Shown here in pieces: positions 19,808 through 37,231 of a stretch of DNA of 49,636 bases. Under the pieces are notes generated by a model. The model was not told the DNA's origin. It searched no databases and was given only the letters and a program-made list of their open reading frames with translations. A program made the position numbers and the translations under genes. Within the stretch, counting starts at the first letter, position 1, and each line of letters begins with the position of its first letter. The DNA comes from Magnetococcales bacterium. Lineage in GTDB: Bacteria; Pseudomonadota; Magnetococcia; Magnetococcales; Magnetaquicoccaceae. Location of the stretch: the NCBI GenBank assembly GCA_015232825.1, contig JADFYY010000005.1, positions 1-49,636 on the forward strand, given 5' to 3'.

Positions 19808-22800
19808 GTGGGGATGGATTCGCATTGTCCGGTCATTTTAGTTGTGGATGATGAACCGGTCAATATTGAGGTATTGAACGCAGTCTTGCAAGATGATTAT
19901 AACGTCCTGTTTGCCACCAATGGTTTGGATGCGCTACAGATTGCCGCGACCCATCGGCCAGACTTGATCTTGCTTGATATCATGCTACCAGAGATGGATG
20001 GGCGTGAGGTTTTGTCTCGACTCCAAGCCGATGTCAACTTGTGTGATATTCCGGTGATCTTTGTCACGGCCATGAGCGGGGAGGGAGAGGAGGCCGCAGG
20101 ATTGGAATTGGGTGCGGTCGATTATATGACCAAACCGATCAATCCGGCTGTGGTCCATCTTAGAGTCAAAAATCAACTGGAACTCAAACAACACCGCACC
20201 CGACTCGAAGAGATCGTCAAGGTGCGCACCGCCGAATTGATTCACGCCCGCGATGAAGCCCGCGAACAAGAAGAGTTGCTCTGGACGGTCTTTGCCTCCT
20301 CACTGGATGTTTTCATCATGATTGATGAACAGGGCAAGGTGCTTGAGTTCAACCCAGCGGCGGAAAAATTGTTCGGATTTACCCGGTCGCAGGTGATCGG
20401 GCAGGAGGTGGTGGATTTTATTGTTCCGCCAGAATGGCGGGAGGCGCATCGTCAGGCACTGGTTAGGTTCAAGAAGCAGTTTGACACCGGGGAGTGGACC
20501 CCGATTAGACGGCGAGTGACCTTCGACGGTTTGCGCGCCGATGGCAAGCTTGTTGACTTGGAAATTGCCATCTCATCGATTGTATCGCAAGGACGACCCA
20601 TTTATACCGCTTTTATGCGAGATATCACCAGTTATAAACAGGTGATGCTCTCCTTGAATGCCGCTTTAGGAACCGCTGAGGACTCTTTCCGTGCCAAGGA
20701 TCTTTTTCTGGCCAACATGAGCCATGAAATCCGTACCCCGATGAACGGCGTATTGGGTATGATCGACTTGGCTCTTGGGGTCGAACTGTCAGACAAGGCT
20801 CGTAATTTTCTCTCTCAGGCCAAATCATCGTCGCATATTTTATTGCGGGTGATTAACGATATTTTGGATTATTCCAAGATGGAGGCTGGCAGGCTGATCA
20901 TGGAATCGGTGGATTTTTATCTGGGGGATGTCTTAGAAGATGCCATCAACTTGTTCCGGCAGGTGGCCATTGATAAGGATCTGGAGTTGGTGGTTTCCGC
21001 CCCTCCCCAATCGATTGGTGTTTTAGTTGGTGATCGTTTGCGTATTCAGCAGGTTCTGGTTAACCTCGTTGGGAATGCCGTTAAATTTACGCGGGCAGGG
21101 GATATTTGTCTCAAGGCGGTTTTGGTCGAACAGACCGAAGAGATGGTGCGTATTGAGTTTTCCATTAAGGATACTGGCATTGGGATTAGCGATGAACAGG
21201 TCGCTTTGCTGTTTACCCCTTTTGTGCAGGCTGACAGCAGCGTTACCCGGAAATTCGGTGGAACTGGGCTTGGTCTGACCATTTGTAAGCGTCTGGTGGA
21301 GATGATGGGCGGTAAGATCTGGGTGAACAGTACACCTGGCAAAGGGAGCCGGTTCTCTTTCACTGTGGTTTTGGGACGCAACCATCAGACGGTACCCTAT
21401 TCGCCCATTGTTCCAGAAGACCTCAAAGGCCTTAAAACATTGGTGGTTGAGGACAATGTGGAAGCTCAGTTGGTGGCCATGGACATGCTCCAACATCTTG
21501 GCATGGAAACGACTTGTGTCGATTCTGGTGAACACTGTTTGGAGACGTTAAAATTGGCCGCAGATCAGGGATCGCCTTTTGACTTGATTTTGTTGGATTG
21601 GCAGCTGCCGGGCCTGAATGGTCTTGCCGTCGCCAAGGTGATTATGGAGTGGGCCACGCGACCGAAAATCATCATTATGACCGCTTTCGGCAAAGAGGAG
21701 ATCATTCAAGATGCCAATCGACAAGGCGTGGATGCCTGTTTGATCAAGCCAATGACCCCCTCTTTGTTGCTGGATACCATTTTGGATGTTTTCGGAAAAA
21801 CGGTCACCAAAATTTATGATGCCAATTTGCATGGCGTTGAAAGGGTGGAAGTGATTCGCAGGGTTGGAGGTGCGCAGGTATTGTTGGTTGAAGATAATCT
21901 GATCAACCAGCATGTGGCTCAGGAGATGTTGGATAGCGTCGGCGTGGTCACAACGTTGGCCAATAATGGTCAGGAGGCCATTCAGATATTAAGCAACCAG
22001 AAATTTGAACTGGTGTTCATGGATGTGCAGATGCCGGTGATGGATGGTTATAAGGCCACCCGCAAGCTACGTTCTATGGAAATGTTTCAGGATTTGCCAA
22101 TTATTGCCATGACCGCTCACGCCTTGGCTGGCGATAGGGAGAACTGTCTGGCCGCTGGCATGAATGATTATCTGCCAAAACCCATTGACATCAACCAACT
22201 CTTCCAGATTCTGGTTAAATGGATCAACCCGCAGCACAATCCGGTGAATGTGAGTGCCTTGCTGGCCAAGGCCGCAGAGAATCAACAGAGTCAGATGAGT
22301 ATGGGTGATTGGCCTGGTATCCAGGTTCAAGATGCCTTGGTGCGGTTGGGATCCTCTTTGGATTTCTACAAAACCATGTGGTGGGATTTTATGCGTGATC
22401 ATCAGCAGGTGGTGGAGGAGATTCGGACCGCTTTGTTTGTGGTGGGAGATGATGAGATGGGTCGAAGTCGGGCCCATACCTTGAAAGGGGTTGCGGGGAA
22501 TTTGGGGGCTAGGGAATTGTCCTTGGCTGCTAGTGCCTTGGAACAAAGCATTCATGCCAAAATGCGTCATGAATGGGGGGGGCTGTTGGAGAAATTGGAG
22601 CGTGCCATGAAACAGGTGAAAGAGTCCGTGGCCACCTTGGGTCAGACGGTTCATTCTGCTGACGAATTGACCACCTCAATGGAAAACGTGGATCGGGAGG
22701 CTGTGGCATTGCATCTGACGACCATGACCGCTTGGCTCAAGAAAGGCAACGTCAAGGCCGGTGAAAGCCTGGAGCCTTTGCATAAGTTGTTAGTTGGAAC

Positions 22801-22924
22801 GGATCTTCAGGTGGAGGTGTCAAAACTGGAAAGGGCGATGGATCAGTTTGCTTTTGACGAGGCGATTCATCACCTGGAAACCCTTGCCAATGTCTTGCAT
22901 GTGTCTATTGGAGAACAGAGATGA
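19808..22924 (+). CDS. Cytoplasmic hybrid kinase, REC-PAS-HisKA-HATPase-REC2-Hpt
   Basis: The protein has 1038 residues and no membrane spans. An N-terminal receiver (D57, L-L-D-I-M-L-P-E-M-D-G) is joined by a coiled helix to a PAS domain (155-275), then HisKA with H306, HATPase (405-520), REC2 with D597, REC3 with D739, Hpt with H890, and the C-terminal helical module (960-1035). The N-terminal receiver means it can be switched by an upstream kinase, probably the membrane kinase whose gene ends four bases earlier. I keep the GTG at 19808 because the G-rich stretch GGGGGG lies a proper distance upstream; an ATG at 19814 would shorten it by two residues. Its stop overlaps the next start (ATGA). 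Confidence 0.92.
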   Translation: MGMDSHCPVILVVDDEPVNIEVLNAVLQDDYNVLFATNGLDALQIAATHRPDLILLDIMLPEMDGREVLSRLQADVNLCDIPVIFVTAMSGEGEEAAGLELGAVDYMTKPINPAVVHLRVKNQLELKQHRTRLEEIVKVRTAELIHARDEAREQEELLWTVFASSLDVFIMIDEQGKVLEFNPAAEKLFGFTRSQVIGQEVVDFIVPPEWREAHRQALVRFKKQFDTGEWTPIRRRVTFDGLRADGKLVDLEIAISSIVSQGRPIYTAFMRDITSYKQVMLSLNAALGTAEDSFRAKDLFLANMSHEIRTPMNGVLGMIDLALGVELSDKARNFLSQAKSSSHILLRVINDILDYSKMEAGRLIMESVDFYLGDVLEDAINLFRQVAIDKDLELVVSAPPQSIGVLVGDRLRIQQVLVNLVGNAVKFTRAGDICLKAVLVEQTEEMVRIEFSIKDTGIGISDEQVALLFTPFVQADSSVTRKFGGTGLGLTICKRLVEMMGGKIWVNSTPGKGSRFSFTVVLGRNHQTVPYSPIVPEDLKGLKTLVVEDNVEAQLVAMDMLQHLGMETTCVDSGEHCLETLKLAADQGSPFDLILLDWQLPGLNGLAVAKVIMEWATRPKIIIMTAFGKEEIIQDANRQGVDACLIKPMTPSLLLDTILDVFGKTVTKIYDANLHGVERVEVIRRVGGAQVLLVEDNLINQHVAQEMLDSVGVVTTLANNGQEAIQILSNQKFELVFMDVQMPVMDGYKATRKLRSMEMFQDLPIIAMTAHALAGDRENCLAAGMNDYLPKPIDINQLFQILVKWINPQHNPVNVSALLAKAAENQQSQMSMGDWPGIQVQDALVRLGSSLDFYKTMWWDFMRDHQQVVEEIRTALFVVGDDEMGRSRAHTLKGVAGNLGARELSLAASALEQSIHAKMRHEWGGLLEKLERAMKQVKESVATLGQTVHSADELTTSMENVDREAVALHLTTMTAWLKKGNVKAGESLEPLHKLLVGTDLQVEVSKLERAMDQFAFDEAIHHLETLANVLHVSIGEQR

Positions 22925-24093
22925 ATGAAGAGATTGGAAAACCAAAAATCTTGATCGTCGATGATACACCAATCAATTTAAAATTATTGGTGAATGCTCT
23001 GAGTGCCAATTATGAGATTCTGGTTGCCACGAATGGGGAGAATGCCCTGAGGTTGGCAGAGACGGAACAACCGGATTTGATCCTTTTGGATATTATGATG
23101 CCAGAGATGGATGGATATGAAGTGTGTCGCCGGTTGAAGGCACATCCAACATTGCAAGCGATTCCGGTCATTTTTGTGACCGCTATGGAGGCCGAGGCTG
23201 CCGAGACCAAGGGGTTCATGCTTGGGGCGGTGGATTATGTGGTCAAGCCATTTAATGTCAATATTGTCAGCCTGCGCATCAAAAATCAATTGGAACTGCA
23301 ACAGTATCGTCAACATCTGGAAAAACTGGTCGAACAACGCACGGCGGAATTGGAGAAATCCAAAACATCCGCTGAATCTGGAAATCGCGCCAAACGGGAT
23401 TTTCTTATGATCATCAGTCATGAACTGCGCACTCCGCTTAACCAGATCATCGGGTATTCCGACTTGCTGGAACCCTTGCTGACGGAAGGTGAGAGCAAAA
23501 AGTTTCTTGGCAATATCACGAAAGCGGGATCATCGTTGTTGCAATTGATCGAAAATACGATTGCTTTTGTTTCCATGGAGCATGCAACCAAACGGGCGGA
23601 TTGCTCCCCTTTTTATTTGCGCGATTTTCTGGATCAATTGCAGCAGGAGTTTGCGGCGGATGCTTTGAAGAAGGGTATTCAACTGGTTTGGTCGGTTGAT
23701 GAGTCGATCCCAGATTATGTGGAAGGCGATGAAAAGCGTTTAAAATTTGCCATGCAACAACTGATCGGCAATGCAATCAAATTCACCCATGAGGGAGCTG
23801 TTTCCTTGGAAGTTCTTCCCGCCCCAGAGCGGGATCCACCAGAGCCGCCTGATACCGTGTTGTTTAAGGTGAAAGATTCCGGTATTGGGATTGCCGAGGA
23901 GTCTAATGAAACCATTTTTAAATGTTTTACACAAATTGAACCCGTGACGACACGCAAATATGGTGGGATTGGTTTGGGTTTGTCTATTGTCAAACGGTGT
24001 GTGGAACTCATGGATGGGCGGTTTTGGCATCAGAGTCAGCTTGGTAAGGGGAGTGTGTTCGCCTTCACGGTCCATTTGCCACCTGCTGGATAA
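22921..24093 (+). CDS. Receiver-histidine kinase, REC-HisKA-HATPase
   Basis: A 390-residue cytoplasmic kinase. The receiver carries D57 (I-L-L-D-I-M-M-P-E-M-D-G) and the conserved K-P-F lysine, followed by a coiled helix rich in Q, R and E, HisKA with H167 ([10 protein letters not shown]), and an HATPase_c domain with N-A-I-K-F, D-S-G-I-G-I and G-I-G-L-G-L-S. It lacks an Hpt, extra receivers and the C-terminal module of its neighbours. D57 and H167 occupy exactly the same positions as in the next gene, so the two look like a tandem duplication. The ATG overlaps the upstream stop, implying coupled translation in the kinase operon. Confidence 0.92.
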   Translation: MNEEIGKPKILIVDDTPINLKLLVNALSANYEILVATNGENALRLAETEQPDLILLDIMMPEMDGYEVCRRLKAHPTLQAIPVIFVTAMEAEAAETKGFMLGAVDYVVKPFNVNIVSLRIKNQLELQQYRQHLEKLVEQRTAELEKSKTSAESGNRAKRDFLMIISHELRTPLNQIIGYSDLLEPLLTEGESKKFLGNITKAGSSLLQLIENTIAFVSMEHATKRADCSPFYLRDFLDQLQQEFAADALKKGIQLVWSVDESIPDYVEGDEKRLKFAMQQLIGNAIKFTHEGAVSLEVLPAPERDPPEPPDTVLFKVKDSGIGIAEESNETIFKCFTQIEPVTTRKYGGIGLGLSIVKRCVELMDGRFWHQSQLGKGSVFAFTVHLPPAG

Positions 24094-24100
24094 ATTCCTT

Positions 24101-25570
24101 ATGGATAAAAACCATAACAATTCAACCATCCTTATCGTTGATGATGTGCCAATCAATATCAGGATGATTGCCTCTTTGTTGATCGGTCCGTATACACTTC
24201 TTGTCGCTAGTAATGGTCGTGATGCCATCGAGATTGCATCAAATAAGCCTGTGGATATTATTTTGCTGGATATCCAGATGCCCGAAATGGACGGGTATGA
24301 AGTCTGTAGTTTCCTGAAGAGTAATCCCGCCACATCGGACATCCCGATCATTTTTTTGACCGCCATGAACGAAACAGCCGATGAGGTCAAAGGATTGGCT
24401 TTGGGGGCGGTGGATTACATTCGCAAGCCACCCAATCCACAATTATTGCGTACCCGGATCAGCAATCAGTTGGAAATCATGATGCACCGGAATCACCTGG
24501 AAAGGTTGGTGCAAGAGAGAACCCGTGATCTGGAACATGCCAAACGGTTGCTTGCTTCCGCCAATCAGGCCAAGGCCGATTTTCTGGCGGTGATCAGCCA
24601 TGAAATGCGCACGCCGCTGAATAGTGTTATTGTTTTTTCTGATTTATTGTTGAACTCAAATCTTGCGTCAAAAGATCGGGATAATGTTCAACATATTCGC
24701 GAATCTGGTAGAGATTTATTGGATAATATCAATGAGATTTTGGATTTTGTCAATTTAGATCCCAACTCTTTCACTCTGAACACGACGCCATTCACTCTTG
24801 TAACTCTGATCGAAGAAGTGGTGAATCTTCTGGCAAAAGAGGCGGAATTGAAAGGAGTAGCTGTTTTGTTTCAGGTGGATGAGTTGGTTCCAGAATCTGT
24901 TGTGGGAGACCTGCGTCGTTTGGGGCAGGTGTTGCGTCATTTGCTCGGCAACGCGATCAAGTTTACTCGCGCAGGTCAGGTCATATTGAAGGTTTCGTCT
25001 GAGATTGAACCGGGTCAGGACAAAGCGCGGTTTACATTTAGGGTGGAAGATACGGGATGTGGCATCCCGCCAGACAAACAGCACATGATTTTTCAGCAAT
25101 TCACCCAGAGCGACGCCTCTCTGACCAGACGGCATGGGGGGGTTGGTCTTGGGTTGGCGATTTGTAAAAAATTGGTTGAAATGATGTCAGGGGAGTTGAA
25201 ACTGGTTCGTTCCGATTCATCTGGAACGGTCATTCTGTGCTGTGTAAACCTGGAAATACAAACCATTGCAACCAAGGTGAAAGGGAGGACAACTCCAGAA
25301 ACACCTGTGGAAAGGCCGCCAAGTGCCATGATTGTGGACCGGGATGCGGTGGAGCAACAGGTGACAATCATGGCGAGATGGCTGAAAAAAGGGAATCTTA
25401 AAGCGAATGAAAGCCTGGAGCCTTTGCGCAAGTTGTTGGTCGGAACCGCTTTGCAGGTAGAATTTTTTAAACTCGAACAGGCCATGGATCAGTTTTCTTT
25501 TAATGTGGCGCAAGATCACCTGGAAACCATTGCTCGGTTTTTGCGTCGTGAAAATCTCGATGCTCCTTGA
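24101..25570 (+). CDS. Receiver-histidine kinase with C-terminal helical module
   Basis: A 489-residue cytoplasmic kinase starting at the ATG seven bases after the previous stop. The frame is open further upstream (to 23960) but that lies within the preceding gene. Order: REC with D57, coiled linker, HisKA with H167 (I-S-H-E-M-R-T-P-L-N), HATPase (N-A-I-K-F, D-T-G-C-G-I, G-V-G-L-G-L-A-I), and directly after it the roughly 70-residue helical module (415-485) that in sister kinases follows an Hpt domain. No Hpt is present here. The last 610 bp (24961-25570) reappear almost unchanged at 27178-27787. It is the last gene of the operon and converges on the diguanylate cyclase. Confidence 0.92.
   Translation: MDKNHNNSTILIVDDVPINIRMIASLLIGPYTLLVASNGRDAIEIASNKPVDIILLDIQMPEMDGYEVCSFLKSNPATSDIPIIFLTAMNETADEVKGLALGAVDYIRKPPNPQLLRTRISNQLEIMMHRNHLERLVQERTRDLEHAKRLLASANQAKADFLAVISHEMRTPLNSVIVFSDLLLNSNLASKDRDNVQHIRESGRDLLDNINEILDFVNLDPNSFTLNTTPFTLVTLIEEVVNLLAKEAELKGVAVLFQVDELVPESVVGDLRRLGQVLRHLLGNAIKFTRAGQVILKVSSEIEPGQDKARFTFRVEDTGCGIPPDKQHMIFQQFTQSDASLTRRHGGVGLGLAICKKLVEMMSGELKLVRSDSSGTVILCCVNLEIQTIATKVKGRTTPETPVERPPSAMIVDRDAVEQQVTIMARWLKKGNLKANESLEPLRKLLVGTALQVEFFKLEQAMDQFSFNVAQDHLETIARFLRRENLDAP
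24961..25570 (+). repeat. Direct repeat, copy 1 (3' part of kinase gene)
   Basis: This segment is the intact source copy of a 610-bp direct repeat whose partner is 27178-27787 (constant offset 2217 bp, no gaps). I see only a handful of single-base differences until the last 25 bp, where the two ends diverge. The repeat begins abruptly inside the HATPase coding region. Confidence 0.95.
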
Positions 25571-25575
25571 TTCAG

Positions 25576-26742
25576 TCATCTTGAGGCATCGGAACTTTCC
25601 TCTGGATTGGGTTTTGCCAATAGTAGTTTTACCTTGTCCGTTTGATCGCAGATCCAGTATCCAGGTACTTTTTTGGATTCGGATTTTGACAAGTACATGA
25701 GTTTATCCGCAGATTTTACCATTTCGTCCACGGATGGAAAATTTTTCGGACCAACTTGGCTGATCCCGATGCTGAAGGAGACTGGATATTGTCCGGCCTT
25801 GTCTTCAAAGCGTTGCACAAGACGACGGCACACCTCCTGGGCTTGTTCAATCTGACAGGAGGGTAGAATGACGCAAAATTCGTCACCTCCATAGCGACAG
25901 CAGGTGTCAATCTCGCGCATTGTTGCCAACAGAGACTCACCGACATGAGCGAGAACCAAATCGCCAGTACGATGTCCTTGTGTATCGTTAATCTTTTTAA
26001 AGCCATTCAGGTCAAAATAAAGCAGTGTAATTGATTCTTCACGACGTTTGGCTATCGACAAGTCAGAGCGTAAATGATCAAAAAATGCACGCTGGTTTAA
26101 AAGTCCGGTCAGGCCATCCATGCGGGACAAGTCCTTGAGTTCTTGGGTGCGTTTGGCAATTGTGATCTCCAGATCCTGGGCATACTGTTCCAGATCCATC
26201 TGGGCAACTTCCACGGCGGCCACCAATGCGCCTGTATAGGTTTCAAAAACCAGATGAACGTCAAACATCAACAGTTTCGATAGGCTGATTTTGCGTGCTT
26301 CTGCTTCAATGCGGGAACAACTGCCATCCTTGCACTGCGCTTCTATAATTTCGTTAAGTAATATTATCAGTCGATTGACAGCCTGCATATAGAGCGATGG
26401 GGATACGCCAATACGTTTGTGGACCTTGCCAACGCGCAAACGGGTGTTTATATAAATCGCATCATAGGTGCCACTGAAAAGTTCTTGGATATAGTTTCTC
26501 ATGGAATTTTTCAGGCGGGAGAGGGTGTCGGCATCGCCAATCACCAATTGAATTTCTGAAAATTCCAATTGTTGCTTGTAAAGTCTTTCAACGATGAGTT
26601 CCAGGTTTTCATCGATGAAAGGTTTGGCGGAAAGCATGTTGCGTTGATCTTCATCGTTGATGCCAAAAAGACGTTTTCGTTCTTCTATGCGCCTTTCGGT
26701 CATTTTAAGTTGTTCCGAGAGGGTGAGTTCTGCAAGATGCAT
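25576..26742 (-). CDS. Globin-coupled diguanylate cyclase
   Basis: A 388-residue protein making cyclic di-GMP. The N-terminal 160 residues are a globin-coupled sensor: an all-helical region with R-L-R-V-G-K-V-H-K-R-I-G-V, where H108 is the likely proximal haem ligand, so the input is O2 or another gas. A linker helix (165-200) leads to a GGDEF domain with the active motif G-G-D-E-F at 285-289 and an inhibitory R-E-I-D at 276-279, correctly five residues before it. Catalysis and product inhibition should both work. I start at the ATG at 26742 with AGGAG six bases upstream; the frame extends to 26790 without a ribosome site. It stands alone and converges on the kinase operon. Confidence 0.92.
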   Translation of the reverse strand: MHLAELTLSEQLKMTERRIEERKRLFGINDEDQRNMLSAKPFIDENLELIVERLYKQQLEFSEIQLVIGDADTLSRLKNSMRNYIQELFSGTYDAIYINTRLRVGKVHKRIGVSPSLYMQAVNRLIILLNEIIEAQCKDGSCSRIEAEARKISLSKLLMFDVHLVFETYTGALVAAVEVAQMDLEQYAQDLEITIAKRTQELKDLSRMDGLTGLLNQRAFFDHLRSDLSIAKRREESITLLYFDLNGFKKINDTQGHRTGDLVLAHVGESLLATMREIDTCCRYGGDEFCVILPSCQIEQAQEVCRRLVQRFEDKAGQYPVSFSIGISQVGPKNFPSVDEMVKSADKLMYLSKSESKKVPGYWICDQTDKVKLLLAKPNPEESSDASR

Positions 26743-26819
26743 TTTTTGCTCCTGATGTTTGAGGATGGTTTCATCGGCATTCAGTATCATGGCAATGATA
26801 AAGAATTAGATATTGAAGA

Positions 26820-27068
26820 TCAATGTGGAAAAAATTGTTTTAGAATGAGCGTAATAATGCCGCCAACCGTAATTGCTGTTCCCCATTTGAGAGGAGCCAG
26901 TTCGGCTGCCATGCGTAGTTCAAGCTCTTTTAAGTCGCGCCTGACATCTAAGATATCCCCCCCTAGTGGCCATCTCTTTCAACTGGGCTTCCTTGAAGGC
27001 ATCAGAAATCGCTTCAGCTTGTTTTTCTTCCACGCTTTAAGCGTATCAAATGCAACGGCAGCGGTCAT
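26820..27068 (-). pseudogene. Frameshifted DUF1640-like coiled-coil protein gene
   Basis: Read on the - strand, the ATG at 27068 starts M-T-A-A-V-A-F-D-T-L-K. The frame then breaks, continues in another frame as V-E-E-K-Q-A-E-A-I-S-D-A-F-K-E-A-Q, breaks again at a run of seven G (C on +, 26956-26962 area), and finishes in a third frame as R-R-D-L-K-E-L-E-L-R-M-A-A-E-L-A-P-L-K-W-G followed by a hydrophobic tail V-G-G-I-I-T-L-I-L-K and a stop at 26820. This is the layout of small DUF1640-type proteins (coiled coil plus C-terminal membrane anchor). Removing one G from the homopolymer would mend the second break; the first looks like a deletion. The piece is part of the duplicated mosaic. Confidence 0.65.
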
Positions 27069-27127
27069 AATCGATTCTCCATGTCTGATGTTGATGACAT
27101 CAATAAAAATAACACAATTTTTCACCA

Positions 27128-27179
27128 GACGGCATTATTTTTTTAGATGTTTAAATCCGATTGATCAGCGACAGGATGT
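27128..27179 (-). pseudogene. Duplicated 3' end of cheB
   Basis: About 50 bp here match 28950-29004, which holds the last codons of cheB and its downstream sequence; the core ATCCGATTGATCAGCGACAG is identical, with a few mismatches and a 5-base gap upstream. The match ends exactly where the kinase fragment begins, so this is the right end of a duplicated unit. Confidence 0.8.
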
Positions 27180-27787
27180 TTACTCGCGCAGGTCAGGTCA
27201 TATTGAAAGTTTCGTCTGTGATTGAACCGGGTCAGGACAAAGCGCGGTTTACATTTAGGGTGGAAGATACGGGATGTGGCATCCCGCCAGACAAACAGCA
27301 CATGATTTTTCAGCAATTTACCCAGAGCGACGCCTCTCTGACCAGACGGCGTGGGGGGTTTGGTCTTGGGTTGGCGATTTGTAAAAAATTGGTTGAAATG
27401 ATGTCAGGGGAGTTGAAACTGGTTCGTTCCGATTCATCTGGAACGGTCATTCTGTGCTGTGTAAACCTGGAAATACAAACCATTGCAACCAAGGTGAAAG
27501 GGAGGACAACTCCAGAAACACCTGTGGAAAGGCCGCCAAGTGCCATGATTGTGGACCGGGATGCGGTGGAGCAACAGGTGACAATCATGGCGAGATGGCT
27601 GAAAAAAGGGAATCTTAAAGCGAATGAAAGCCTGGAGCCTTTGCGCAAGTTGTTGGTCGGAACCGCTTTGCAGGTAGAATTTTTTAAACTCGAACAGGCC
27701 ATGGATCAGTTTTCTTTTAATGTGGCACAAGATCACCTGGAAACCATTGCTCGGTTTTTGCGTCGTGATGATTCTAATGCGCCTTGA
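27178..27787 (+). pseudogene. Kinase 3' fragment, copy 2 of the direct repeat
   Basis: Near-identical to 24961-25570 and in the same frame to the stop. It encodes the G1/G2 half of an HATPase domain and the helical module but has no receiver, HisKA or N-box, and no start signal, so it cannot be a kinase. Visible amino-acid changes are few (for example the R-H-G-G-V stretch of copy 1 is R-R-G-G-F here). The frame is open from 27161, but those extra codons are cheB-derived. It is a dead remnant or, at most, a short product of unknown use. Confidence 0.9.
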
Positions 27788-27843
27788 TCCCGACAACCGT
27801 AATTACTGTTTCCTATTTGAGAGGAGCCAGTTCGGCTGCCACT
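27788..27843 (-). pseudogene. Second DUF1640 fragment
   Basis: About 55 bp match 26857-26911 of the broken DUF1640 gene with five or so mismatches (core GAGGAGCCAGTTCGGCTGCC identical). It directly follows the kinase fragment stop. Only the A-E-L-A-P region of the protein is represented. The stretch from 27843 to 27948 shows nothing further that I can identify apart from the ribosome site of the next gene. Confidence 0.75.
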
Positions 27844-27948
27844 CCTACTGACGGTTTTTGGTTGCTTTTGCAACCTGCCTTGTGGTCGAATATGTCGGCT
27901 CACAAGGCCGATTTTGATGATCACTGCAATTGATAGGGGGTCGTTTTT

Positions 27949-28926
27949 ATGATCAAACTGGCCCAGCCACATGATCGGCTATTCACAGCACTGATGTCCA
28001 CCCCAGAGACTGCGGGTGCCTTGCTGCGTGAATATATGCCCAAGGAGATCGTGGCAGTGCTTACGCCAGAAGACCCGGAGTTGGTGCAGGGATCATTTAT
28101 CAACGAGGAGTTGCGTCCATATTACTCGGATCGAATGTTTCGCGCTAAAACTTTGAGCGGTAGGAGCGTCTATTTCTATACCTTGATGGAGCATAAAAGC
28201 TATCTGGATCGAAAGGTTGGGCAGCAGCTTCACCGTGGAATCAGCAGGTTTATAGAGCAGAAAGAACAGGAAAACCCGGAATGGACTCTTCTGCCAGCTA
28301 TCGTGCCCTTCGTTTTGTATCACGGCGCACAAGAGTGGACTATTCCAAATGAGTTCCTGGCACTGGTGGATGCGGATGAGGCATTGAGGCCATGGCTGAT
28401 GAATTTTTCATTTATTGTCGCAAATTTAGGACCGATTCCTGATAATCGGTTGGCGAGGAATGCGCGTCTGAAGGCGGGTTTGATGGCATTAAAATACGGC
28501 ACTCGTGATCCAAAAACACAAAATGAAGCGTTGTGGGCTATCGTGGCTGCTTTGGAAGAAGCACCAGAACTATTGGTTCCAGTAATGCTTTATCTTTTGA
28601 CAACCTTTCAAGACCTGGATGAAAGCGATGTGCGTGAAATCGTGATCCGGGTTTGTCCACAGGAGACCACTGAAATGATATCTGTCTTTGCACGTAACAT
28701 TGTTGAACAGCACAAAAATGAATGGCGGCAGGAGGGCTTTGAGAGTGGAGAGCAGCGAGGCAAGTTGGAAGAGAGAATAGAAATGCTGATTGACCTCCTT
28801 CAAGAGCGTTTTGGATCGGTGCCAGATTGGGTCCGCTCCAGGTTGGCCGAGGCGGATTTGAACACTCTGAAAGGGTGGAGCAAGAAAATTTTTGGTGCCG
28901 AAAAAATTGAGCAGATATTCCAGTAG
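27949..28926 (+). CDS. Rpn-family recombination-promoting nuclease
   Basis: A 325-residue protein of the Rpn/YhgA (PD-(D/E)XK) family. Key features are the opening P-H-D-R-L-F-T-A-L, L-L-R-E-Y-M-P, S-F-I-N-E-E-L-R-P-Y-Y-S-D-R-M-F, then Y-T-L-M-E-H-K-S, with D and E-x-K as the likely metal-site residues, and the family core P-A-I-V-P-F-V-L-Y-H-G. E. coli Rpn proteins are Ca2+-stimulated DNA endonucleases that raise RecA-independent recombination. The C-terminal third is helical and charged (E-Q-R-G-K-L-E-E-R-I-E-M-L). AGGGGG lies eight bases before the ATG at 27949. It lies inside a locally duplicated and deleted region, between kinase debris and cheB. Confidence 0.88.
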   Translation: MIKLAQPHDRLFTALMSTPETAGALLREYMPKEIVAVLTPEDPELVQGSFINEELRPYYSDRMFRAKTLSGRSVYFYTLMEHKSYLDRKVGQQLHRGISRFIEQKEQENPEWTLLPAIVPFVLYHGAQEWTIPNEFLALVDADEALRPWLMNFSFIVANLGPIPDNRLARNARLKAGLMALKYGTRDPKTQNEALWAIVAALEEAPELLVPVMLYLLTTFQDLDESDVREIVIRVCPQETTEMISVFARNIVEQHKNEWRQEGFESGEQRGKLEERIEMLIDLLQERFGSVPDWVRSRLAEADLNTLKGWSKKIFGAEKIEQIFQ

Positions 28927-28970
28927 GCATTGGAGCAGATTGACTTCTAGGTCGTTATTTTTTCAGATGT

Positions 28971-30032
28971 TTATCCTGAAATCCGATTGATCAGCGACAG
29001 GATGTGATCAGGAATCCTCTCCAATGAGAGGATCGTCTCAACGGCATTCAGTGCTAGGGCCTCACCGGGCATCCCAAAGACGATGGAGCTTTCCCGGTCT
29101 TGCGCAAACGTATGACACCCCGCATTGCGCATGGCCAACAGTCCATACACCCCATCGTTGCCCATGCCGGTCAAGATTCCCCCGACTGACCGGTGGGGCG
29201 CAACCGTGGCCAACGAATTGAATAATGGATTCCCAGACGGGCGAAAACGGTTGACAGGCGGGGTTTCGCATAACTGAACTTGCAGTTGGCCTGCCTCGGA
29301 ACCAATAGTTAAATGGTGATTATCTGGGGCAAAAAATACCGTGCCGGGTCGCAATAGTTCACCATTTTCAGCCAGTTTGATGGTCAATTTGCTGGAAATC
29401 GCCAACCATTTAACCAATCCGCCGATAAATCCAGGTGAGATGTGCTGTACCACGACAATGGGAAAGGGTAAATTTTGTGGCAAGGCCGCAAAAATGGTGT
29501 GTAATGCCTGTGGTCCTCCCGTGGAACAGGCCAAGGCCAATACTTGGCAGGATGTTTTTTGGGTTCCTTTGGTTGGAATCGGGACGGGGAACGAAGTGGG
29601 GGAGGTGTGAACACGACGAATGCGACGGACCAGTTTGACTCCAGCCATGGTGCGAATGGTCTCTACAATCGTGCTGCGGATCATGGAAAAATTGGGACTT
29701 TGTAAGCCAGCCGGTTTCTCGATTACGGCTAGGGCACCCTCTTCAATGGCGCGAAAGGTAATGCGCAACTCCTCGTCATTGACGCTCGATGAGATGACCA
29801 CAATGGGTACAGGACGGGTCGCCATGATGTGTTGAGTCGCCGCAAAACCATCAAAAATGGGCATGCGGATGTCCATGGTGATGAGATCCGGTTGCAGGGC
29901 TTCGGCCATTTTGACCCCTTCCGCACCGTTTCTGGCACATCCGACAACCGTCATGTCCGCTTCCTGATTGAAAATGGCAGAAAGTAGGGTGGAGGTGACA
30001 AGTGAATCTTCGATAATCAAGATGCGAATCAA
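28971..30032 (-). CDS. cheB: CheB, chemoreceptor methylesterase/deamidase
   Basis: A 353-residue protein with a receiver domain (I-L-I-I-E-D-S, phospho-acceptor D54 in I-T-M-D-I-R-M-P) and a C-terminal methylesterase domain. The catalytic triad is visible: S170 in A-C-S-T-G-G-P, H197 in V-V-Q-H-I-S-P-G-F, and D293 in G-I-L-T-G-M-G-N-D-G. It removes methyl groups from the MCP encoded two genes upstream and would be activated by CheA. I start at the TTG at 30032, 13 bases after the CheA stop with GGGGA upstream; the frame continues to 30092 only by running back over cheA. It is the last gene of the chemosensory operon. The distal 3' end has a duplicated scrap at 27128. Confidence 0.92.
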   Translation of the reverse strand: MIRILIIEDSLVTSTLLSAIFNQEADMTVVGCARNGAEGVKMAEALQPDLITMDIRMPIFDGFAATQHIMATRPVPIVVISSSVNDEELRITFRAIEEGALAVIEKPAGLQSPNFSMIRSTIVETIRTMAGVKLVRRIRRVHTSPTSFPVPIPTKGTQKTSCQVLALACSTGGPQALHTIFAALPQNLPFPIVVVQHISPGFIGGLVKWLAISSKLTIKLAENGELLRPGTVFFAPDNHHLTIGSEAGQLQVQLCETPPVNRFRPSGNPLFNSLATVAPHRSVGGILTGMGNDGVYGLLAMRNAGCHTFAQDRESSIVFGMPGEALALNAVETILSLERIPDHILSLINRISG

Positions 30033-30045
30033 AAGGATCCCCCAA

Positions 30046-32283
30046 TTAGACGATGAGCTGTTCGACGACTTCCAGTAATGCCTTGGTTTCAAACTGACCC
30101 TTGATGATGTAGGCGTCGGCCCCGACCGCTACTCCCTGTTGTTGATCCTCGACACTCCCCAACGAAGAGACCATGATCACCGGAATTTCTCGGTGTGCCT
30201 CACTGGTTTTGATCAATCGGGTTAACTGAAATCCATCCATGATGGGCATTTGGATGTCGGTAACTACAAGATGACAGGAGTTTTTTTGCAGGATCTCCCA
30301 TCCCTCCAGGCCGTTGGTGGCCAACTGCACTTCATATCCGGCGTTGGTGAGGATGTTGTTCTCCAAGGTTCGAGTGGTAATGGAATCATCCACCACCAGA
30401 ATGCGTTTTACTGCAGGTTTGATGCCATCGATCTCTAACGGGTCAAATGTGGTCTGCGCGTTGTGACGTACTGCCGCCTCCACCAAGGCTGTTGGGTCCA
30501 ATACAAGGGCAACGCGACCGTTCCCGGTTATGGTTCCACCCGCGATAAGGGGGGCGGCGTATAACGGTGGCGGTAGTTTTTTGATCACCATCTCTCGATC
30601 TGCCAAGGCATCGTCCACCAGAAATGCGATCTTGTGCCAACCGTTGGAAACCACAACGACAGGGGCGGCCTTGGAGAAAAAATGGGTGGGGTTTGGCTGT
30701 AACCCCAGGATTACGGCAAGCGATACCAACGGGATGATGGTGTTGTCTAGGTTGATTGCGTCACGATTTTCGACACGGATTTTTAATGTTGGCGAAAGTT
30801 GCACGATGCGTTCAACATTGTTGCAGGGAATGACCATGATTTGCTCGGCTACTTGGATCAACAATCCTCTTTCTGTGGCAATGGACAATGGGAGGTCTAG
30901 AATGAACGTGGTGCCGTAGCCAACGGCGGTTTCTACCTGAACGCTCCCCTGGATGGTGCGCAGATTGGTCAGTACCACATCCAGCCCAACCCCGCGTCCT
31001 GAAACCGTGGTGAGCAGGTCGCGAGTGGTGAATCCAGGACGGAAAATGAGGTTCAACATCTGTTCCCGATCCAGATTGTGGCAGGCTTGTGGCTCGATGA
31101 TTCCCTTGCGCAGGGCGGTTTGGAGGATCTCTTCTGCATCCATCCCTCCCCCGTCCTCTTGAAGTGCTATGCGAATGCGGTGTCCGGTTTGCTTGAAGGA
31201 GAGAGAAATGCGACCGGCTTCTGGCTTTCCTTTGGCCAGACGCAAAGCTGGCGTTTCAATGCCATGATCCAAGGCATTGCGTAACAGGTGATTCAACGGG
31301 TCTCGCAACACCCTGAGTACATTGCGATCCATAATCAGATGATCCCCTTCGATTTCCAACGTGGCCTTTTTGCCAAGATCTTGTGCTAGATCACGCACCA
31401 GACGGGGCAATGGTCGAGTCAAGGTGGTGGCTTTGACCATACGCATCTGTCGGATTTCATCACGCATGGAACGGGTCAGAATTTGCATCTCTTTGCCAGC
31501 AGTGATCAGTTTTTGTCGTAATAAGGTCGTCATGGCGTGGATTTCATCGATGGCCTCCCGGCAACGCGAAGGAATCCCATTCTGCGTATTCATCCATTCG
31601 GTGACGATCTCCACATGTTCCAGAATCCGATGAGTTTTTTGTCTGGGGTCGATCATTTCGCCAAGGGTGATATGGATTTCGTCGTTTAAGGCACCTAGAC
31701 GTTCTAAGTTATCTGCGTCCAGATGAATGACCTCTTTTTCTGGCAGGGATTCAACTGGCGCAATGGGTGGGGGTCGCCAGCGTAGGACCGGTTTTGGTTC
31801 ATCTATGACCAATGGCGCGACATCCTCTTGGAGAGTTTTTTGCGCGGTTGCGACAATTGGGGTGGCCTGGATGGTGTCGGTTAGGGTAATCAAACGGTTG
31901 CCAAGGGTTTCGACCTGTTGGGCGGAGATTTCATGCCCTGCAAGGAACTGTTCAAACGCCTGACGCATGAAGTCCAATGTGGCCAAAGCCGCGTCGATGG
32001 CATCGGTCATGGGGAGATCCGGTCGCTTTTTTAGTACGGAAAAGAGCGATTCCATGCGGTGGCTAATGTCAGCGATTGCGGTAACCCCAACCCCGCGTGA
32101 GGCACCTTTGATGCTGTGTGCCGCCCGAAAAATTTCTTCGAGAATTTTATTGCGACCCGGTACGGAGAGATTTTTCTCTAACTGTAGCAGCAGATCGGCA
32201 ATCGCTAAGAGTTTCTCATCCAGTTCAATGCGAAATACGGCGATTAGTTCTTTTTGCAGTGCTGCATCCAGGTCATTGAACAT
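30046..32283 (-). CDS. cheA: CheA-receiver fusion (WspE-like histidine kinase)
   Basis: The central kinase of a chemosensory array, 745 residues. An N-terminal Hpt has H56 in R-A-A-H-S-I-K-G. The dimerisation and HATPase region shows H-L-L-R-N-A-L-D-H-G-I-E and G-R-G-V-G-L-D-V-V. It is followed by a CheW-like regulatory domain and a C-terminal receiver with D676 (V-V-T-D-I-Q-M-P-I-M-D-G). The CheA-REC layout and length match WspE and FrzE-like kinases of alternative-function (ACF) systems rather than flagellar CheA. The ATG at 32283 lies four bases after the MCP stop with AAGG upstream; a TTG at 32340 would overlap the MCP gene. The phosphoryl group probably goes to its own receiver, to CheB, or to another regulator. 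Confidence 0.92.
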   Translation of the reverse strand: MFNDLDAALQKELIAVFRIELDEKLLAIADLLLQLEKNLSVPGRNKILEEIFRAAHSIKGASRGVGVTAIADISHRMESLFSVLKKRPDLPMTDAIDAALATLDFMRQAFEQFLAGHEISAQQVETLGNRLITLTDTIQATPIVATAQKTLQEDVAPLVIDEPKPVLRWRPPPIAPVESLPEKEVIHLDADNLERLGALNDEIHITLGEMIDPRQKTHRILEHVEIVTEWMNTQNGIPSRCREAIDEIHAMTTLLRQKLITAGKEMQILTRSMRDEIRQMRMVKATTLTRPLPRLVRDLAQDLGKKATLEIEGDHLIMDRNVLRVLRDPLNHLLRNALDHGIETPALRLAKGKPEAGRISLSFKQTGHRIRIALQEDGGGMDAEEILQTALRKGIIEPQACHNLDREQMLNLIFRPGFTTRDLLTTVSGRGVGLDVVLTNLRTIQGSVQVETAVGYGTTFILDLPLSIATERGLLIQVAEQIMVIPCNNVERIVQLSPTLKIRVENRDAINLDNTIIPLVSLAVILGLQPNPTHFFSKAAPVVVVSNGWHKIAFLVDDALADREMVIKKLPPPLYAAPLIAGGTITGNGRVALVLDPTALVEAAVRHNAQTTFDPLEIDGIKPAVKRILVVDDSITTRTLENNILTNAGYEVQLATNGLEGWEILQKNSCHLVVTDIQMPIMDGFQLTRLIKTSEAHREIPVIMVSSLGSVEDQQQGVAVGADAYIIKGQFETKALLEVVEQLIV

Positions 32284-36370: not shown

Positions 36371-36545
36371 TTCTAGCTCTACGCCCCAATGCTGATCCTC
36401 ATGTTCTTTAATATCGATGACGTAAAAACCAGTTTTGGCAGAAAAAAGATTTGCGGTGGATGCCAGTGGCTGAATGTGGTATCGTAAGGCCTCATATTAA
36501 TTGAGTCGCAGCCTGCCAGACCACCCGCTATCGGGAAGGGAAAAG

Positions 36546-36935
36546 ATGAATGTCGAGCAACAGGTGACATACTGGCGCACGGGTTCCGATGAAGATTGGG
36601 ATATGGTCGAGATCGCCTTGGAAAAGGGGAAAATCCGCCATGGGTTATTCTTCCTTCATCTGGCCATAGAAAAATTGCTCAAAGCTCACATATGCCGTGT
36701 GACAGGAGGATACCCACCCAAGATTCATGACCTTATCCGTTTGACCAAACAAGCGGAATTGGATGTTTCCGAGGCATGGCTATTACTCCTGGGCAGGATG
36801 AATGCCTTTTGCTTGATCGGTCGATATCCAGGCAATCCGACGGCGCAAAATATTTCCATTGATGTCGCCTATCGTTACCTACACGATGCGCAGGAGGTCA
36901 GAGCGTGGCTGCAACAGACATTGTTCTCACCATAA
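36546..36935 (+). CDS. HEPN-domain protein of a HEPN/MNT pair
   Basis: A 129-residue helical protein starting at the ATG at 36546 (GGGAAGGG upstream; the frame opens at 36501). It shows the HEPN signature of the COG1895/COG2250 group: H-L-A-I-E-K-L-L-K-A-H, G-Y-P-P-K-I-H-D-L-I-R-L, and I-G-R-Y-P-G-N near the end. The R-x4-6-H ribonuclease motif of HepT toxins is not evident, so it may be a non-catalytic member that works with its nucleotidyltransferase partner. Its 3' end overlaps the partner gene by 31 bp. The pair is opposite in strand to the chemosensory genes on both sides, which suggests insertion. Confidence 0.85.
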   Translation: MNVEQQVTYWRTGSDEDWDMVEIALEKGKIRHGLFFLHLAIEKLLKAHICRVTGGYPPKIHDLIRLTKQAELDVSEAWLLLLGRMNAFCLIGRYPGNPTAQNISIDVAYRYLHDAQEVRAWLQQTLFSP

Positions 36936-37231
36936 AGAGCTATCTGCACCGTTTGGAGGAGCGGGGTATGCCTGTTGCCTTTGGGGTGCTGTACGGCTCC
37001 TTTGCACGGGGTGATGCGCACGCCGATAGCGATGTCGATCTGGTGGTGGTCTCCCCCCGTTTTGACAATCCTGACTCCTGGTCAGACACAGAACTGCTGT
37101 GGGAAACCACCGTATTCACTGATAGTCGCATCGAACCAGTGGGGGTGGGTGCCAGACAATGGGAGGAGGATGGAGTCATCCCCTTGATTGAAATCGCCCG
37201 CTGTGAAGGACAAATCATTTTGCTGAACTGA
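36905..37231 (+). CDS. MNT-type nucleotidyltransferase of a HEPN/MNT pair
   Basis: The protein has 108 residues with the complete minimal nucleotidyltransferase signature: G-V-L-Y-G-S-F-A-R-G, then H-A-D-S-D-V-D-L-V-V-V, giving GS, RG and D-x-D for metal and nucleotide binding. It should transfer AMP or another nucleotide to a partner. In type VII HepT/MntA modules the MntA-like protein adenylylates the HEPN toxin. The start is a GTG at 36905 with a perfect AGGAGG seven bases upstream, inside the HEPN gene, so expression is coupled. Unlike the degenerate relative at 3791-4534, catalytic residues are intact here. Confidence 0.9.
   Translation: MAATDIVLTIKSYLHRLEERGMPVAFGVLYGSFARGDAHADSDVDLVVVSPRFDNPDSWSDTELLWETTVFTDSRIEPVGVGARQWEEDGVIPLIEIARCEGQIILLN

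Follow-up and report, generated by a model that had tools for sequence, protein, structure and literature searches.

A partly supported case of local tandem duplication by short-homology joining between a kinase gene and cheB in a Magnetococcales genome

In a Salmonella survey, confirmed duplications carry short direct repeats, for which the survey applied its own cut-off of 8-12 bases (PMC3411829). The spontaneous short-homology events described there are local direct duplications and deletions whose joints have neither IS elements nor long repeats, and the locus analysed here is similar in all these respects. It differs in that the Salmonella repeats are longer, partly through the survey cut-off, whereas 2 bases are involved here and the units have since been altered internally. 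Replicative rearrangements of the MMBIR/FoSTeS type, as presented in a human PLP1 study (PMC6902434), exhibit multiple joints, each with a minimal overlap, and small variants nearby. Such joints and variants are also seen here, but this locus is bacterial, extends over a few kilobases and has all its pieces in direct orientation, and a single-event origin is only a reading of it. The third comparison is with tandem direct duplications of rpn regions, reported in a preprint (PMC10327210). A direct duplication at an rpn-bearing locus, with no defined element ends, is common to both, but here rpn is single at the locus and its neighbours are duplicated. No paper on tandem duplication in Magnetococcales was found within the limited literature collection searched. 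The rearrangement between the kinase gene and cheB is real, clear and of an ordinary, well-known kind. It can be read as a trace of a short-homology duplication, and the sole point beyond the ordinary is that its pieces appear to have aged unequally.

The window, that is the whole stretch of DNA analysed, is the entire contig C226 of 49,636 bases from a draft genome of 270 contigs that is 77% complete. According to domain searches, a kinase gene with receiver, HisKA and HATPase domains is located at 24101 to 25570 on the plus strand. Its open reading frame as called begins at 23960, within the preceding gene, and therefore an in-frame ATG at 24101, read from the sequence, is the likelier start. 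An intact gene on the minus strand, at 25576 to 26790, specifies Protoglobin (E 2.1e-31) and GGDEF (E 7.5e-39) domains in one protein. This is the architecture of globin-coupled diguanylate cyclases, and the product is a putative oxygen-sensor-type cyclase. It is followed by copy 1 of a DUF1640-like pseudogene (D), on the minus strand with approximate limits of 26824 and 27103 and a broken frame. The rpn gene (27949 to 28926, plus strand) contains a Transposase_31 domain (PF04754) with an E value of 5.9e-44, above the curated cut-off, and is a member of a dispersed family by domain and genome searches; cheB was identified by domain search at 28971 to 30092 on the minus strand. The name DUF1640, given in the initial annotation, holds only by way of intact relatives in the genus. 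Three out of three match PF07798, formerly called DUF1640, with E values from 9.5e-8 to 4.3e-7 and scores of 30.4-32.5 bits, all just below the curated cut-off of 33.5. The two pieces of the pseudogene in the window, however, had no match to PF07798 at E<=1.

Repeat pairs were sought by self-comparison of positions 22000 to 31000. Three direct pairs were recovered, and the coordinates of the duplicated pieces in the initial annotation proved to be right. They define three scraps arranged head to tail at 27135 to 27841, derived from the cheB 3' end, the kinase 3' end and the DUF1640-like pseudogene. The first, scrap c (27135 to 27179, minus strand), matches the cheB 3' end and bases downstream of it at 28955 to 29005 on the same strand. 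In this pair, 44/45 aligned bases are identical; the copies differ by a single substitution and a gap of 6 bases (E 1.2e-8 by self-BLAST within 9 kb). The kinase 3' end is represented by a block of 611 bp (R) on the plus strand, copy 1 at 24961 to 25571 and copy 2 at 27178 to 27788. The two are identical at 598/611 positions without gaps, and copy 2 is open to a stop at 27785-27787. The third scrap, D copy 2 (27787 to 27841, minus strand), is identical to 26857-26911 at 50/55 positions (91%), and a gapped version of 68 bp gave an E value of 2.3e-13. Scraps, order, orientation and joints are observed directly. On either side of the new joint the kinase 3' end, the DUF1640-like sequence and the cheB 3' end are present, all direct, an order that fits one tandem unit as proposed before. 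For three randomly placed scraps, our own rough arithmetic gives 1/6 for the order and 1/8 for the set of orientations as a guide to chance.

The claim that the cheB scrap is joined straight to the kinase copy agrees with the sequence. At this joint, designated J1, c and R overlap by GT (27178 to 27179), and at J2 R and D overlap by AT (27787 to 27788); neither joint is assigned to a strand. J1 is a novel joint without long homology, the 2 bases at 27178-27179 being all that is common. An overlap of at least 2 bases has a chance of about 0.16 for random sequence by our own arithmetic and is unremarkable. These joints also bear on a possible assembly error, either copies mis-linked across a 367-bp identical run within R or a chimeric joint. 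Typical short reads are shorter than 367 bp, so that the run is long relative to them, and the draft state of the genome points in the same direction. On the other hand, the sequence right at J1 and J2 is unique, and these joints are therefore not products of repeat collapse. In addition, an alternative linking with the same joints would leave a separate circle of 2.2 kb without a replication gene, which would be unlikely to persist. An assembly error is considered very improbable.

When the genome itself was searched with 27100-27900, five places were detected: the query, its three partners and a stretch of a kinase paralogue at 22688-22887 with 73% identity to the query. A further comparable copy of R or c was not found in this genome, 77% of which is covered. 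Among the matches listed from 48 genomes of the order, a second long match to the R block outside the window was absent. For the D scrap, the neighbouring copy is identical at 91%, and the next-best matches to this part reach 70-71% (G003, G008 and G007, out of 11 genus genomes). From these searches, the scraps are not a dispersed element.

With moderate confidence, the arrangement is best explained by a local tandem duplication through illegitimate joining, with units that later changed and an R interior that was homogenised. The unit copied head to tail would extend from 24961, in the middle of the kinase HATPase domain, to about 29005 at the cheB 3' end. As just 2 bases are shared at the new joint (27178/27179), it would result from illegitimate joining, and this would probably have happened without Ku-type end joining. 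Ku (PF02735) was detected in none of 11 genus genomes, five of which have a completeness of 90% or more, and this makes classical end joining unlikely. Slippage, sister-strand mis-joining and template switching remain as candidate mechanisms. Unit 2 would now be without the cyclase and the greater part of the DUF1640-like gene; for rpn, a loss in unit 1 and a gain in unit 2 are equally simple. The identical interior of the two 611-bp kinase copies is most likely due to RecA-type exchange between them, while their edges and the DUF1640-like scrap would have drifted. Duplication as the origin and the mode of joining are what we infer from the scraps: ends and order match one repeated unit. Since each unit lacks or has added internal parts, contiguity of that unit is deduced as well. 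A point against a tandem duplication is that it needs two to three internal parts to have been lost or gained separately while the core of R changed at only 6/591 positions. Overall, the earlier interpretation as a tandem duplication is partly supported.

The alternative for rpn follows from its distribution. The initial annotation had assumed that unit 1 lost rpn; the gene is indeed present in unit 2 only, but loss from unit 1 is not required, rpn being a dispersed multicopy gene. At the protein level, this genome has 33 places at E<=1e-5, many of which are fragments, and of 48 genomes of the order, 43 gave a match to PF04754 at E<=1e-10. Compared to a copy on contig C144, the rpn DNA is similar over 27928 to 28825 (89%), and similarity to the copy on contig C27 begins at 27917. 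The similarity to other copies reaches to about 20-30 bases 5' of the rpn start codon. Given this limit and the dispersed nature of the family, a later gain of rpn by unit 2 is no less simple an assumption than its loss from unit 1.

Searches for relatives covered 61 genomes for cheB, 11 for the DNA of the region, 11 for the cyclase and 48 for the kinase DNA, own genome counted. The relatives compared are distant ones from other species, for which six cheB loci and six kinase loci were fetched. The order kinase-GGDEF-DUF1640-rpn-cheB, proposed earlier as ancestral, is absent from all six cheB stretches and all six kinase stretches examined in these distant relatives. We infer an ancestral order nevertheless, rather than reading it off, because the relatives compared included no strain of the same species. 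The closest cheB genes among the matches listed, with 69% protein identity, belong to G001 and G002 of the same genus. In both, the order cheA-cheB is kept and the DNA 3' of cheB is different. Neither the cyclase nor rpn was found near cheB in the six stretches (E<=1e-20, more than 35% identity). In G034 (locus L031), a generic hybrid-kinase region and cheB are about 2.6 kb apart, and a looser listing contained a protoglobin-like match near receptors in G028 (locus L028). No cheB was found near the kinase relatives in six stretches, two of which ended early at contig ends. Among the matches listed for the cyclase, the relative in G003 ends 120 bases from the end of its contig, on the side of the kinase-side neighbour. 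A contig scan with the kinase, from which the own genome may be left out, yielded distant kinases only.

Comparison of the copies revealed divergence that is distributed unevenly, and this too is observed directly. The 13 differences in the 611 bases of R consist of six in the first 591 (the core) and seven in the last 20 (the tail), and they concentrate toward the block ends. Taking all sites as equally mutable, and with regions that were picked once differences had been seen, c plus the R core differ at 7/636 positions and the R tail plus D at 12/73 (Fisher p 1.7e-8). If D alone is compared with c plus the R core, p is 0.0014; if the R tail is taken as one event, p is 0.0002. The interior of R contains the identical run of 367 bases (p 0.006 with 8 events). 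Scrap c (1/45 plus the gap) is far less changed than D (5/55), both being short. The initial annotation had regarded the kinase copies as nearly identical and either the event as recent or the copies as being homogenised. Near-identity is correct, but this significantly uneven divergence counts against one recent duplication followed by uniform drift. The pattern could be due to gene conversion or to error-prone template switching. Interior gene conversion accounts for R, but not for the contrast between c and D; errors at the junctions or pieces of differing age account for both.

Pieces of differing age would be expected if two diverged versions of the locus, kinase-GGDEF-DUF1640-like-cheB and kinase-DUF1640 scrap-rpn-cheB, had been combined by integration or unequal exchange between strains. 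In that case the differences between the units would be older than the joint, in line with a young c plus R core and an old R tail plus D, and the missing of different parts in each unit would also be accounted for. However, neither was encountered among the relatives compared, and the joint between cheB and kinase still requires an illegitimate step. Such a combination appears quite improbable.

Errors at the junctions are part of another possibility, one replicative template-switching event, MMBIR/FoSTeS-like, in which the joints were made together. Replication would have skipped forward to the cheB end, gone back to the kinase, on to the DUF1640-like gene and forward again; the apparent losses of the units would be skips, and the extra differences errors near switches. 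Indeed, 15 difference events, obtained by merging adjacent differences as a matter of judgement, lie closer to J1 or J2 than expected from uniform placement (mean 52 bases, p 1.2e-4). Later deletions are not required, and the failure to detect Ku in the 11 genus genomes is also in favour. Small variants beside joints are known from human replicative rearrangements, according to the PLP1 study (PMC6902434), but this analogy is no bacterial test. Moreover, 9% is a high proportion of changes for a 55-bp piece altered in a single event, gene conversion of the interior predicts the same crowding, and 2-base overlaps also arise by chance. A single template-switching event is given a minor chance. 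An extended version, in which a single switch in a genus that looks Ku-less made the whole patchwork and left the Protoglobin-GGDEF gene in a pop-out arrangement beside the chemotaxis operon, is assigned a small chance; if true, cells could lose this cyclase gene by one crossover.

It was also considered that the Rpn nuclease made the breaks and that rpn loci generally gather local duplicated scraps. Published work links Rpn to recombination (PMC5350276, PMC10327210). Off-target Rpn cutting was suggested in 2017 as a source of substrate for microhomology-mediated assembly (PMC5350276), and rpn arrays were attributed to tandem direct duplications in a 2023 preprint (PMC10327210). In a first sample of 40 rpn loci and 40 GGDEF-control loci from genus genomes, separated direct repeats were present at 7/40 rpn loci and 0/40 controls (p 0.012). 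The criterion direct and separated had been set post hoc, after a first look that gave 8/40 versus 0/40 by hand, the 7/40 being obtained on the same loci with a wider rpn mask; with repeats on either strand, the counts are 10/40 and 6/40. Of the 40 rpn loci in the first sample, four were drawn from the rpn protein list of the own genome or compared with it. The window's own rpn locus was excluded from both samples. Loci in both were taken from listed matches and are non-random, many being truncated by contig ends; controls were GGDEF loci in the first sample and cheB or kinase-type loci in the second, and some rpn-like homology is also present in 6/40 and 6/30 of them. In the preset replication, with 30 loci of each kind taken from other genera, such repeats were present at 5/30 rpn loci and 7/30 controls (p 0.75). 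Enrichment of local separated direct repeats at rpn loci was not supported, and the role proposed for Rpn is extremely improbable.

The intact globin-coupled cyclase gene is flanked by the two R copies, direct repeats of 611 bp, and its loss by one crossover is thus a testable prediction. Such an exchange between the copies would remove 2217 bases, the Protoglobin-GGDEF gene among them, and the kinase gene that remains would be full-length, its last residues slightly changed. Templates were also sought for the sequences adjoining the repeat copies. For 27842-27930, 28915-28960 and 27050-27134, the window gave just short matches at chance level, and the best match to 27842-27948 outside the window had an E value of 0.016 among 11 genomes. 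Directly behind the D scrap, the segment 27842 to 27927, found by sequence search and assigned to neither strand, has two predicted hairpins.

The 200-bp stretch 22688-22887 is 73% alike to 25334-25533 and 27551-27750. The three are located near the 3' ends of two adjacent kinase genes and in the scrap of a kinase 3' end (27178-27788). Judged from its sequence, this stretch is a predicted C-terminal domain common to both kinases, which has no Pfam match of its own.

Between the DUF1640-like scrap and rpn, the segment 27842-27927 contains two predicted hairpins, and folding of 27842-27948 as DNA gave a z of -4.15. A convincing second copy of the segment was not found in a search of 11 genomes of the genus, the best match having an E value of 0.016. 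Many of the 33 places with rpn in the genome to which the contig belongs are C-terminal-only pieces of 55-100 residues, which may be either RpnS-like genes in their own right or remnants of disrupted copies. Arrays of rpn are present in two relatives, G003 (L233:4986-6843), where 917 bp are identical between two rpn copies, and G004 (L245:1-2593), where the tandem unit is 1.25 kb long with 99.6% identity.

In a third relative, G028, a protoglobin-like stretch immediately precedes a chemoreceptor signalling region inside a chemotaxis cluster (L028:2824-4308). The protoglobin-like stretch shows 31% identity to residues 35-190 of the Protoglobin-GGDEF cyclase of the window, and together with the signalling region it could possibly constitute an oxygen-sensing receptor.

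Two ORFs overlapping each other were detected at 36501-37231, one for a HEPN protein (PF05168, E value 1.4e-11) and the other for a nucleotidyltransferase (PF01909, E value 1.1e-9; PADLOC PDC-S09, E value 8e-10). The arrangement looks like a pair of the HEPN-MNT type.
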